Virus record (IMG/VR): IMGVR_UViG_3300044796_000148
Location: 1 to 21,382 of that record
Strand: one strand, 5' to 3'
DNA from: a virus
Length of the DNA stretch: 21,382 bases
Shown here: positions 997 through 21,382 of the stretch, in pieces
Layout: every line of letters starts with the position of its first letter
How positions within the stretch are numbered: position 1 is the stretch's first letter
Translations under genes and position numbers: made by a program
The notes under the pieces: generated by a model
Told to the model about the DNA's origin: nothing
The model's input: the letters and a program-made list of their open reading frames with translations, nothing else
Database searches by the model: none

Positions 997-1012
997 TAAC
1001 AATATGTAGTCA

Positions 1013-2865: not shown

Positions 2866-3170
2866 CAGAGACCGTACTCGTCTTGTATTTCTTGCTCGAC
2901 TTGCATCTTGCTAACTTTCCTGTCCTTGGGGAGCAAGCAAAATTGTTTCGCTAGCGTGATGTATTGCTTCGCCAGCCCGACATAGCGGATCGCTTCCTTG
3001 CTGTCTAATGCGGGCTGACAACCTCTGATGAGTGCCCAGATATCGCAGAGCAGACAGAACGATTCCACGTCGGCCTCCGTGAGCAAGCCGACTTCGTAAA
3101 GCCGTTTCGCGTGCCGATGCCAGAACTTTTCGCTCTCGCCCGTCAGGTGATTTGGTATTCGTATCATCAT
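2865..3170 (-). CDS. terS: Terminase small subunit, P27 family
   Basis: TerS recognises phage DNA at cos or pac and hands it to TerL. The 101-residue protein has the P27-family pattern: EKFWHRHAKRLYEVGLLTEAD (about residues 13-33, quoted here only as its two anchors FWHRH and GLLTEAD), a helical FCLLCDIWALIRG segment, and the closing LAKQFCLLPKDRKVS. The gene starts with two consecutive ATGs (3170 and 3167) without a clear Shine-Dalgarno. The 82 bases upstream (3171-3252) are not coding and are a natural place for a cos or pac site, though I see no defining motif. Confidence 0.88.
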   Translation of the reverse strand: MMIRIPNHLTGESEKFWHRHAKRLYEVGLLTEADVESFCLLCDIWALIRGCQPALDSKEAIRYVGLAKQYITLAKQFCLLPKDRKVSKMQVEQEIQDEYGL

Positions 3171-3453: not shown

Positions 3454-3483
3454 ATTATTATATAGTGCGAGCAATATAATAAT
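3454..3483. promoter_or_regulatory. Divergent promoter/operator palindrome
   Basis: ATTATTATAT (3454-3463) and ATATAATAAT (3474-3483) are a perfect 10-bp inverted repeat around the spacer AGTGCGAGCA. TATAAT-like hexamers occur on both strands. It lies between the divergently read ribbon-helix-helix gene (ATG 3453) and a small plus-strand gene (ATG 3488). A 13-mer from the left arm and spacer recurs at 4220-4232 upstream of the late gene cluster. It is a plausible autoregulatory operator. I see no good -35 element on either side. Confidence 0.55.
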
Positions 3484-4107: not shown

Positions 4108-4159
4108 AACACTAATTCCTATAAGGGCATTGATTTTAGGTATTTAGTGTCCGCGCATG

Positions 4160-4427: not shown

Positions 4428-5177
4428 TCACGATGTCATCATGTTAGTGATCGCCTCTTTCGTCAGGCGTCCGGCCTTCTCGCACGTCTTCCGACATTTG
4501 TTGTTGCCCCGTGCGTCGTCCTGTTCCATCTTCATTGTCGCCAGTTCTTCGGCGAAACGGACGAACGAGCATTCGCGTCGGGTCAGGTTGTCGCGTAGGC
4601 TGTCCGATCTTGTCAGTTCGCGTCGAGCCTTGAGTTCGTCGGTTTTGCCGCCTAATAGCGGCTCATATATCGCGTTGGTGCAGGCACCATACCCCCAATC
4701 GCGGACGCCTCGACTGCCTAGTTCTTCGGTAAATAGATTCCGAATATCAACGCCTCTCAGCCGTTCCGCAATCCATGCGTCCGACTTCCCCTCTCGCTTG
4801 TACGCAAGTGCCGCCCTTTCCCGCGCCCTCTGTATCGCGAGCTCTGGATTCGCATTCTCCTCCATTCGCTCAATCACTATCTGATTGACCGCGATTTGCG
4901 CCTCTGGTGAAATCCACGTCATGTACGCCAGGGCGACTTGCTGCGCCGCCCATGTTCCGTGTCCCCGTGATACCTGGAGTGGCTTTAAAGCCACTCCAAG
5001 CGCGCCGATGAATGCTTTAGTCTCTTTCGTCCGTAGCCATTTGTGCGCTTTCTTGTTGCTGTCGCCGTTCCCGAGATGTTGCCATATTTTAGTAAGTGAA
5101 AACATCCCGTCATCGTTCGCGTCGAAATAGACGCCTTGCTGGTTCGTGATACTCAATCTAATCAATTCCTTACTCAT
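4428..5177 (-). CDS. KilA-N domain protein, antirepressor-like
   Basis: This 249-residue protein has an N-terminal KilA-N DNA-binding domain (about residues 10-105). It shows GMFSLTKIWQHLG, KAHKWLRTKET, and the signature GTWAAQQVALAYMTWISPE (about 74-92). The C-terminal part (about 125-245: GKSDAWIAERLRGVDIRNLF, LRDNLTRRE) resembles the conserved tail seen in DinD-like and phage KilA-N/BRO-type proteins. KilA-N proteins in temperate phages often act as antirepressors or regulators of the lytic switch. The open frame extends to 5234, but that part overlaps the hairpin at 5203-5228. ATGs at 5177 and 5189 are both possible, and I chose 5177 because GAAAG precedes it by 5 bases. No CI-like partner is seen. 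Confidence 0.85.
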   Translation of the reverse strand: MSKELIRLSITNQQGVYFDANDDGMFSLTKIWQHLGNGDSNKKAHKWLRTKETKAFIGALGVALKPLQVSRGHGTWAAQQVALAYMTWISPEAQIAVNQIVIERMEENANPELAIQRARERAALAYKREGKSDAWIAERLRGVDIRNLFTEELGSRGVRDWGYGACTNAIYEPLLGGKTDELKARRELTRSDSLRDNLTRRECSFVRFAEELATMKMEQDDARGNNKCRKTCEKAGRLTKEAITNMMTS

Positions 5178-7705: not shown

Positions 7706-9244
7706 TTACTCCACGCCGAACTTGCAACCCCACTTCTCGCGAGAGTGGTATTCCAGGGTGATGACGCGAGTCTCGCCCGTCCGAAGGGTGATAGTCGCCC
7801 GGACGAACCGCTCATATCGCGTCCGTGGCTCGATCTCTAGACTGATGCCCTTTACCAGTGCGCGGATTTTCGTCTTGAGCCGCGCCCGCATTTCGCCCTC
7901 TTTGCCTTCGGCCTTCGCGTCTTCCATCTGATCTATGATGTCCTTCGCTTCGGCGTGGTCGGTACTGGCCGATTGGGCTTGTCGGGTCAGGTCCGCTAGT
8001 CGGTCTTTCAGTGCGTTCCTCTGCGTCTTGAGCTCTTGAAGGACGGTTGCCATCTCTTCAAAGTCGCCATTGGACGCGAGCAACTTCGTCGCCTTCGCAA
8101 TCCGGGTGTCCTTGTCCGCGATGATACCTTGCGTCTCTTGAATTTGAGCGTTGATGGCGTTCGTCGCGGTGTCGTCGTCCAGTTCAAGCCCGCCGATGAA
8201 ATGCGTGAAGGCGTTTTCAAACAACAGGTAGTCGCATGAGATGACCGCGCCTTTATTGACGAGGGCGACGTGGCTTTGCAACATTTTCCGCCCCTTGTGT
8301 CGGCGGCAAATCATGTTGCCCTTGTCGTTGGCATCGATGATTAGGCCAGTGAAGAGGTTTGCGCAGTTCGTCCCTTGCTTCTGGGGAATCTTCGGGCGAG
8401 CGGCATTGAGACCGATGGCACGATAGTACAGTTCTGCGTCAATCGCAGGAGGATAGTAGCCGATGATGGGTTCGCCCGTGGCTACCTGTTTGCCCTCTCG
8501 CCGTAGACGCGGTTGGTACTCACCTAGTACCAGTTTCTTGCCTAGCAGTTGGGCGGAGATATAGGACGATGTCCATTGCTTCCCCTTGCCGGGACACGGG
8601 ACTTTCTCCTCGTTCAAGGTCTTGCTGATGTGATTGATTGAGTCGCCAGCCACTAGCATTGTGAAGATGCGCCGCACCAGTGCGACTTTCTCGGGAACGA
8701 GTACATATCGCTTGTCCTTCAGCGTCAGCCAGAACGGGCATACGCTCGTCATCGGTTGTCGTCGCGTCCTGCGTGCCGCCCATGAGTCTCTGACGCGAAC
8801 GCTCTTGATATTGCTTTCTTCCTGCGCCCTCTCAAGGATAATCTGGAGTTCAAGAGCCCCCAGCATGAGTCCCTTTATTGCGGTTTCGTCGTACTCTCGC
8901 TCTGGGTTCAGCGTGACTATGCGGACGCCTGCCCGAAGGATCGTCTTGAGTAGGTCATACCCCTCGTCGATGCCCTGGCGTGAGATGCGGTCTAGGCTCT
9001 CCACGATGAGGGCAGAGCCACGGGGAATCTTGCCGGTCGTGATGTCGTGGAGAATGGACGCGAGTTCGCCTTGCTTGGCGTTCTTGCCCTTCCATCCTGA
9101 TACCCCCCGATCCATCCTCAGCGTGTCGTCTAGCGTCCAGCCCCGCCGCTCACAGTAGCGGGCCGATGCCTCTTTCTGCCGTGCCTCTGACCTGCCCTTC
9201 GCCTGTTCCTTGGAACTGTAGCGAATGTAACTTATTGCCCTCAC
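7706..9244 (-). CDS. int: Large serine integrase
   Basis: This 512-residue site-specific recombinase inserts the phage into the host chromosome. The N-terminal resolvase-type catalytic domain has R8 and the presumed nucleophile S10 (YIRYSSKEQ), then SLDRISRQG (D85-R86, R89). The Recombinase domain spans about 155-275, with PEKVALVRRIFTMLVAGDS and ISKTLNEEKVPCPG. In the usual zinc-ribbon region (about 290-340), the LFTGL motif is followed by IDANDKGNM, with no CxxC pair and only isolated Cys at 294, 313 and 337. A coiled coil (about 365-445) and a C-terminal beta segment follow. The start is the GTG at 9244, preceded by GAGG at 8 bases. A candidate attP lies 64 bases upstream. Confidence 0.93.
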   Translation of the reverse strand: MRAISYIRYSSKEQAKGRSEARQKEASARYCERRGWTLDDTLRMDRGVSGWKGKNAKQGELASILHDITTGKIPRGSALIVESLDRISRQGIDEGYDLLKTILRAGVRIVTLNPEREYDETAIKGLMLGALELQIILERAQEESNIKSVRVRDSWAARRTRRQPMTSVCPFWLTLKDKRYVLVPEKVALVRRIFTMLVAGDSINHISKTLNEEKVPCPGKGKQWTSSYISAQLLGKKLVLGEYQPRLRREGKQVATGEPIIGYYPPAIDAELYYRAIGLNAARPKIPQKQGTNCANLFTGLIIDANDKGNMICRRHKGRKMLQSHVALVNKGAVISCDYLLFENAFTHFIGGLELDDDTATNAINAQIQETQGIIADKDTRIAKATKLLASNGDFEEMATVLQELKTQRNALKDRLADLTRQAQSASTDHAEAKDIIDQMEDAKAEGKEGEMRARLKTKIRALVKGISLEIEPRTRYERFVRATITLRTGETRVITLEYHSREKWGCKFGVE

Positions 9245-16970: not shown

Positions 16971-17378
16971 TTAGCTCCCCGGTGTAAAGACAACTGCGCC
17001 CTCGACTCTGAGGCTACATTTGATATCCATAACGGCATCAATCGTTCCGTCGACTTCCGCGTTCTGTAGTTTCCCGTTGAACGCGAAAGTTGAGGCGTCG
17101 GGGAATGTCAGAAGGTATGCCTTGCTCACGCCTTGAAGGGCATAGCATCGGGCCAAATCTTCCTTGACATACAGGAGGGTAAATGTGCAGTCGCCCGGCT
17201 CAATCAAGGCCGGAACGTAACGCTTGTACGAATCGCCCTGATTCATAAACGATGCGTCGGCCCATTGCTGATCCGCCTTCGGCGAGTTGAACTCTTTCAG
17301 CATCGCGAAATTCTGTTGCGCCGACATTGACCCGTCATTCACTGACAAACTAGAACCTAGTCCTATTGATGCACTCAT
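16971..17378 (-). CDS. Major tail tube protein
   Basis: This is the hexameric ring protein that stacks to form the siphovirus tail tube. It has 135 residues from the ATG at 17378. The sequence is beta-rich with the usual tail tube profile: KEFNSPKADQQWADASFMNQGDSYKRYVPALIEPGDCTFTLLY (quoted only in part: GDSYKRYVPALIEPGDCTFT) and a C-terminal DAVMDIKCSLRVEGAVVFTPG. At 135 residues it is compact, with no extra Ig-like domain. Another in-frame ATG at 17384 lies inside a hairpin arm. The 17378 ATG has AGAGG at 7 bases, but this site is buried in a 14-bp stem. Confidence 0.85.
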   Translation of the reverse strand: MSASIGLGSSLSVNDGSMSAQQNFAMLKEFNSPKADQQWADASFMNQGDSYKRYVPALIEPGDCTFTLLYVKEDLARCYALQGVSKAYLLTFPDASTFAFNGKLQNAEVDGTIDAVMDIKCSLRVEGAVVFTPGS

Positions 17379-17380
17379 GC

Positions 17381-17417
17381 ACATACCTCTATAAAGTTTA
17401 GACTTATAGAGGTATGT
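17381..17417 (-). promoter_or_regulatory. Ribosome-site-sequestering hairpin before the tail tube gene
   Basis: ACATACCTCTATAA and TTATAGAGGTATGT (17417-17404 and 17394-17381 on the minus strand) are perfectly complementary over 14 bases, with loop GTCTAAACT. The 3' arm contains the Shine-Dalgarno AGAGG (17390-17386), 7 bases before the ATG at 17378. No T tract follows, so it is not an ordinary terminator. Confidence 0.85.
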
Positions 17418-17436
17418 AGTCGTTGTGCGTTAGGAT

Positions 17437-17805
17437 TTACCCCCAAACGTCAAATGTCTGTTGGGTGTGATAACCGACTTGCTCTTGCAGTTCTTGCGAG
17501 TTGGTGAGGAAGCAACCTTGCACGTCGTTGTCTTTCCAGGTTGAGAAAGTGCCATACACCGCATCGGCGACGGAACGGCAGTCGTCCTCGTTGATCGCCC
17601 ACGTGTCAATTTGGTAGGTGTATTTTTTCAACCCGACCGGGCCGGACATTGCAACCACGTCTTGTGTCGCCTGCCTTGAGTACAGGATTGCGGGGGCGGT
17701 TTGGATGGAGTAATCAGGCGTTGCTATGACGGGAAAGATATGCTCGCCCACTAGGTCGGTTATCGCCGTCGTCGTTATGAGTTTGGTATAGATCGTCGAA
17801 TCCAT
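17437..17805 (-). CDS. Tail terminator / completion protein (DUF3168-like)
   Basis: This 122-residue protein probably caps the tail tube and joins it to the head connector. It shows the family outline: MDSTIYTKLITTTAITDLVGEHIFPVI at the N terminus, then PAILYSRQ and KYTYQIDTWAINEDDCRSVADAVY. The gene order (HK97 gp10-like, this gene, tail tube) is the normal one. Its ribosome site GAGG overlaps the stop of the preceding gene, 4 bases before the ATG. The hairpin at 17381-17417 follows it. Confidence 0.8.
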   Translation of the reverse strand: MDSTIYTKLITTTAITDLVGEHIFPVIATPDYSIQTAPAILYSRQATQDVVAMSGPVGLKKYTYQIDTWAINEDDCRSVADAVYGTFSTWKDNDVQGCFLTNSQELQEQVGYHTQQTFDVWG

Positions 17806-20537: not shown

Positions 20538-20576
20538 GTGTCTCCTATAGGGTACGTCTCGTATCTATGCGGACGC

Positions 20577-21134: not shown

Positions 21135-21382
21135 CGGTCTCCTGTTGCTTGTCGTCGCCCTGGCCGTGCGGCACTTGCGGCGGGGCTGGTGGCGGGGCTG
21201 GTGGCTCGTCAATGCCGGGGATCGGGTCTAGCCTGTCCTCTGCCCTGACTTCGCTAGGAAGCATCCAGGGGCGGTTGCCCGTGGCAATCGCGTAGGCTTG
21301 ATTTCTCGTCAGTTTGTCCGGCTGTAGGAAGTCAGAGACGTCGAACTCAGCGAAGTAGGTTTGCCGCTCCGATTCGGCCAAC
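21118..21382 (-). CDS. Portal protein, C-terminal part (continued from position 1)
   Basis: These 88 codons continue the portal gene beyond the circular join; 21352-21382 repeats 1-31. The sequence reads TYFAEFDVSDFLQPDKLTRN, then AYAIATGNRPWMLPSEVRAE, the usual C-terminal crown of HK97 portals, and ends in a Pro-rich, flexible tail. The portal stop overlaps the prohead protease start by 17 bases. Confidence 0.93.
   Translation of the reverse strand, partial: LAESERQTYFAEFDVSDFLQPDKLTRNQAYAIATGNRPWMLPSEVRAEDRLDPIPGIDEPPAPPPAPPQVPHGQGDDKQQETDGNTK
21352..21382. repeat. Right copy of 31-bp terminal direct repeat
   Basis: Identical to 1-31. See the left copy for interpretation as a circular overlap. 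Confidence 0.93.

Follow-up and report, generated by a model that had tools for sequence, protein, structure and literature searches.

A hairpin over the tail-tube Shine-Dalgarno sequence of a phage related to planctomycete prophages is probably a translational gate built around a predicted late promoter

In the virus record IMGVR_UViG_3300044796_000148, a stretch of 21,382 nt that we analysed whole and call the window, a perfect inverted repeat spans the Shine-Dalgarno (SD) sequence of the major tail (tail tube) protein gene, and we consider it probable that this repeat is a translational gate built around the tube gene's own late promoter. The RNA of interest is that of the minus strand. The main feature, which an earlier note on this DNA did not contain, is a promoter-like box that overlaps the 5' arm of the repeat. 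We propose that this arm holds the -10-type box TACATAC and the start region of a tube promoter. Polymerase arriving from the upstream genes would make RNA with both arms, on which the stem would hide the SD and the tube gene would hardly be translated. Transcription that starts at the box would instead give RNA from near A17407, which would keep four of the 14 arm bases (10 of the 14 being missing) and have its SD free, such that tube output would track the activity of the gene's own promoter and not read-through. We infer from sequence that the box acts as a promoter, and likewise where exactly +1 lies, how strongly translation would be affected and what purpose the arrangement has.

The window looks like a complete, small temperate phage genome, since a 31-base direct terminal repeat (GAAGTAGGTTTGCCGCTCCGATTCGGCCAAC) occupies positions 1-31 and 21352-21382 and the portal frame runs on across the join once this repeat is removed. 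It encodes a serine recombinase (7706-9244), beside which we observed, on the strand opposite to the late genes, an MT-A70-type methyltransferase gene (Pfam PF05063; 6438-7580, plus strand). A 24-base perfect palindrome, TGGAGTGGCTTT/AAAGCCACTCCA, is found at 4975-4998, within a KilA-N domain gene. Of the window's open reading frames that were searched with Pfam, none was recognised as encoding a sigma factor or an RNA polymerase. The tube gene itself (16971..17378, minus strand; 135 amino acids from ATG 17378) matches PHROG 158 (E = 1.2e-7) and sits between the tail terminator and tail assembly chaperone genes, so that profile and position both support the identity given in the earlier note, and an iterative profile ties its product to about 178 tube homologues. 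The tail terminator gene lies upstream of it (17437..17805, minus strand; PHROG 78/347), with its stop codon 19 nt before the stem, and the genes upstream of tube are late head-tail structural genes.

As single queries, the tube, capsid and terminase found no close viral relatives, or one distant relative only, and tblastn of the tube against a phage collection gave no match; the capsid reaches about 30% identity in that collection, in which close relatives are absent. Alignment of the adaptor protein led to best genome matches that are prophages of Gemmataceae, Planctomycetota (L109, L110). The capsids of these prophages are 37% identical to that of the window and their tubes 24-28%, and genome searches in Gemmataceae and in the phylum Planctomycetota supplied about 40 further tube loci. 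From these relatives we infer that the window phage is a planctomycete phage.

Read on the minus strand from 17418 downward, the sequence is TACATACCTCTATAAGTCTAAACTTTATAGAGGTATGTGCATGAGT. The 5' arm (ACATACCTCTATAA, 17404..17417) and the 3' arm (TTATAGAGGTATGT, 17381..17394) are complementary at 14 of 14 positions and enclose a 9-nt loop (GTCTAAACT, 17395..17403), which confirms the unbroken 14-bp stem described in the earlier note, as well as the location within its 3' arm of the SD AGAGG (17386..17390), 7 nt before ATG 17378. A second in-frame ATG, at 17384, lies within the stem and 1 nt from the SD, and ATG 17378 is therefore the likelier tube start. The view that the symmetry is too long for chance was also upheld: a 14-bp stem occurred in none of 60 dinucleotide-preserving shuffles of the whole window (12-13 bp in two), and perfect stems at the start regions of other window genes are at most 7 bp. 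A fold of the 141 nt around the hairpin gives z = -4.2 (the plus strand was folded, with the same pairing). On read-through RNA, folded with standard parameters at 37 °C, the SD is unpaired with a probability of only 0.001; on RNA from the predicted +1 this probability is 0.42, a result that holds for all starts from +9 to +13. The proposal that the stem blocks initiation thus stands insofar as folding hides the SD, but the evidence does not point to the openers that were listed with it (upstream translation, a protein, RNase cleavage or temperature), because the 5' arm overlaps a promoter-like box whose transcripts would lack the arm.

This box, TACATAC (17412..17418, minus strand), is one of a family of TANATAC boxes and the predicted -10-type element of a phage late promoter. 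Nearly all 5' arms of the relatives' tube hairpins start in TA[ACG]ATAC, and TANATAC also precedes other late genes in related planctomycete prophages. We counted 30 late-region sites at which an ATG follows the box, against a mean of 2.3 for 59 permuted 7-mers, the top permuted control being CTNAATA (19 sites), which overlaps TANATAC itself; its orientation in these regions is sense in 48 cases and antisense in 15. Two classes of start follow the box, with the ATG either 10-12 nt from the box start, the leaderless type, or about 25-45 nt away and provided with an SD. A logo of 55 sites, in about 20 of which the start codon lies exactly 10-12 nt from the box start, contains an A/T block at -19 to -15, C or A at -1 and A or T at +11. 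The A/T block is present in 21 of 23 short-leader sites and 20 of 27 long-leader sites, as against 6 and 4, respectively, for a neighbouring position. With a scoring matrix built from sites outside the window, the tube box scores 18.6, against a median of 17.6 for 51 relatives' sites. Projected onto the window, the logo puts the A/T-rich upstream block of the predicted promoter at 17433..17438 (minus strand), overlapping the tail terminator stop codon, and the leaderless class would put +1 at A17407, 11 nt past the first base of the box.

In 390 kb of planctomycete phage loci there are 48 boxes that precede an ATG, and in 767 kb of non-planctomycete relatives there are two. Five boxes, one of them before an ATG, were found in 400 kb of the host chromosomes of two relatives. 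We considered a host vegetative (sigma-70-like) promoter and rejected it on this scarcity of the box before genes in the sampled chromosomes. Given a bipartite element at fixed spacing together with leaderless spacing to the ATG, we find TANATAC best interpreted as a late promoter specific to the phages, whose +1 at the tube gene is probably near A17407.

Other minus-strand boxes are found in the window. TAGATAC at 20561..20567 (score 12.7) lies 30 nt before the ATG of the major capsid gene (20537) and has no SD-hiding hairpin, and TAAATAC at 4140..4146 (score 18.8) precedes by 39 nt the ATG (4107) of a gene whose 145-aa product has no known function, with a weaker hairpin over the SD. The leaderless class is represented by TACATAT at 1002..1008 (one mismatch, score 12.0), with the portal gene ATG at +12, and by the box-like TATATAA at 3458..3464 (score 13.4), with the ATG of an open reading frame beginning MKKKVVSRC at +11. 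Among loci L309-L325, about half of the TANATAC sites (e.g. L315 8183, L317 8435, L318 8449) have a start codon 10-12 nt away and no SD, which suggests that many late messages of planctomycete phages may be leaderless, those of adaptor genes included. We also observed strong hairpins directly before several leaderless-class boxes (L322 ~6476, L319 ~8314, L312 ~4090 and 4576); one hairpin ahead of such a box has the arms CAGAGAGACCAG/CTGGTCTCTCTG. Possibly these hairpins end or block upstream messages.

The box might alternatively be an RNA-processing signal, near which an endonuclease cut would remove the 5' arm and free the SD, and which elsewhere would make leaderless ends at the ATG. For the hairpin the consequence would be the same, and the sites do lie within co-directional gene runs, no clearly divergent site having been found. 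We nevertheless regard processing as unlikely: the other conserved block, which keeps a fixed spacing of 15-19 nt upstream of the box, fits a bipartite promoter better, and a box that is mostly paired in a hairpin would be a poor target for a single-strand nuclease.

The earlier note had proposed conservation of the stem among relatives as a check, and in the nearest clade pairing is indeed kept, with different sequences; this supports the view that the hairpin matters, and the refuting case named in that note, relatives with no pairing, does not arise for this clade. Many planctomycete tube loci have an equally placed hairpin whose 3' arm contains the tube SD, the stems being, for instance, ACCCTTGTA/TACAAGGGG in L266, ACCCCGT/ACGGGGT in L270, ATACTCCG/CGGAGTAT in L277, ACATACCCC/GGGGTATGT in L303 and ATACTTC/GGAGTAT in L289; the bases that pair with the SD are mostly those between the box and +1, so that in the relatives, too, messages from the predicted promoter would have a freed SD. 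Over 30 sites, partly non-independent phylogenetically (L309 with L030, L322 with L323), the region from the box to +12 pairs with its own SD region at -8.1 kcal/mol, compared with -5.2 kcal/mol when partners are swapped (z = -7.4), and none of 20,000 swaps was as low. Among 14 paired sites, positions 7-11 are paired in 62 of 70 cells versus 43 for swaps, and several pair types occur at positions 2, 8 and 10, even the free third base of the box varying with its partner; these 14 sites were picked for their pairing, and the swap test on all 30 is the less biased of the two. The registers of the 3' arms, which MAFFT aligned poorly, were fixed by script. Pairing is kept by compensating base changes while the stem sequences differ. 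It is not a by-product of the box, because it is missing from the majority of capsid genes that carry this box (tube exceeds capsid in pairs, Mann-Whitney p = 0.005). Some planctomycete tube genes are without pairing at the box (L310, L315), and L311 is without an exact box.

A perfect stem of at least 8 bp over the SD was found in four of 169 tube homologues of all phyla (the window, L105, L110 and L100), so that an SD-hiding hairpin is common only in the planctomycete clade and not in tube genes generally; a survey of 16 related phage loci contained no SD-burying perfect stem equivalent to that of the window. At 8825 in L105, where the tube gene has no box, a perfect stem of 9 bp (CTCCTGGGT/ACCCAGGAG) includes the SD AGGAG, possibly an independent case of SD hiding. 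In L189, at ~3090-3125, GCCTC has two possible partners, GAGGC and the tube SD AGGGGC, and the two hairpins are mutually exclusive.

Translational coupling is an explanation that we judge quite unlikely. The hairpin would be opened by ribosomes that finish the upstream gene or that disrupt the stem, and tube synthesis would depend on upstream translation. The end of an upstream gene is nearby, the SD is hidden on the long RNA, and in L266, L277 and L289 the stop codon of the upstream gene overlaps the 5' arm or directly adjoins it. In the window, however, the distance from stop to stem is probably too great for the arm to be covered by a ribosome that is terminating, and among relatives this distance varies from 0 to tens of nt. 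Coupling would also leave unexplained the conserved box, its upstream block and the presence of the same box at leaderless genes, and equal coupling would be ill suited to a high-copy tube protein.

A DNA operator, at which a repressor bound to the inverted repeat would cover the promoter and the RNA hairpin would be incidental, could account for a long dyad that overlaps a promoter-like box. We hold it to be very unlikely, however, since one protein would need one sequence, whereas different arms occur inside a single genome (tube and 4107 in the window; tube, capsid and 15581 in L322) and among relatives, with pairing kept, and since the 3' arm coincides with the SD every time. An RNA thermometer, or a switch opened by a ligand or protein, is compatible with SD occlusion alone and seems to us highly improbable: 14 unbroken base pairs give a stem more stable than is usual in thermometers, the lack of conservation of stem and loop sequence outside the box speaks against a bound ligand, and Rfam covariance models for riboswitch, thermometer and leader families gave no match at gathering score. 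Least probable of all is an intrinsic terminator or attenuator between the tail terminator and tube genes, for although Burkholderia phage KS9, Halomonas phage H4907 and contig405706 have terminator-like T-tract hairpins in this gap, the window stem lacks a T tract on either strand, as the earlier note had said, no terminator was called, and the stem, unlike those of the other phages, includes the SD. The 10 viral-contig matches to the exact hairpin pattern were all AT-rich (24-41% G+C), mostly in terminator-like contexts, and unrelated.

Returning to a gate built around the tube promoter, the purpose that we prefer is that tube output would be set by the gene's own promoter, independently of read-through from its low-copy neighbours; timing or balance of tube synthesis, as suggested earlier, is also plausible. 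From this we extend to a wider hypothesis, on which our confidence is evenly divided. Planctomycete phages may share an undescribed class of late promoter, composed of an A/T block, ~14 nt, the box [CA]TANATAC and a +1 ~11 nt from the box start, that gives leaderless transcripts at many late genes. At selected high-demand genes, above all tube, the promoter itself would have become an anti-RBS arm by co-evolution, which would restrict translation to messages started at the promoter; this T4-like gate would have evolved independently and be used inside a late operon to set virion stoichiometry. If this is true, T4's promoter-within-hairpin gate has a counterpart in phages that are unrelated to T4 and use another promoter, where it acts on a main virion protein, not on lysis or homing genes, and Planctomycetota phages gain a late promoter consensus and probable leaderless messages, neither of which we found described for them in a literature search. 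For both promoter and pairing, the predictions specify individual bases.

According to the passages of PMC3014915 and PMC2988022 that deal with these genes, read-through RNA of T4 e, soc, 49 and I-TevI forms a stem whose 3' arm holds the SD, and a late promoter encoded in the 5' strand of the stem gives late transcripts that lack this strand and are translated; for gene e, the cited passages put lysozyme synthesis ~100-fold lower on the structured RNA. With the e, soc and I-TevI gate the window shares an SD that is paired on read-through RNA, here within 14 bp. Its 5' arm contains a predicted box and a predicted +1, and RNA from there would have an opened SD. The T4 late promoter is TATAAATA, whereas the window has TACATAC with an A/T block 15-19 nt upstream, and the window phage belongs to an unrelated, small siphovirus-like lineage of Planctomycetota. 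Moreover, T4 gates late genes inside early transcripts, whereas the window would gate an abundant tail gene inside a late operon; the early-versus-late rationale of T4 may not carry over, since the genes upstream of tube are late too. The best reading, in our view, is that the logic of T4 gene e, soc and I-TevI would have arisen in an unrelated lineage with another promoter.

Aeh1 mobE and T4 segB, as the part of PMC2988022 on these genes describes, have late promoters of their own and an RBS that is sequestered in an RNA hairpin; they encode homing endonucleases, whereas the window gene is a major virion gene. Leaderless bacterial promoters are alike in having a -10 box a few nt before the ATG, the box start of our short-leader class being 10-12 nt before it, but the sequence of the planctomycete box is specific to the phages, and the host chromosomes sampled have few copies of it. 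The terminators of KS9 and H4907 place a hairpin in the same gap, but have T tracts and leave the SD free; such terminator-like hairpins with T tracts stand just before the tube gene in three of the 16 surveyed loci (L025, which is KS9, L022, which is H4907, and L026). Across unrelated phages, then, the gap that separates the tail terminator gene from the tube gene recurs as a control point.
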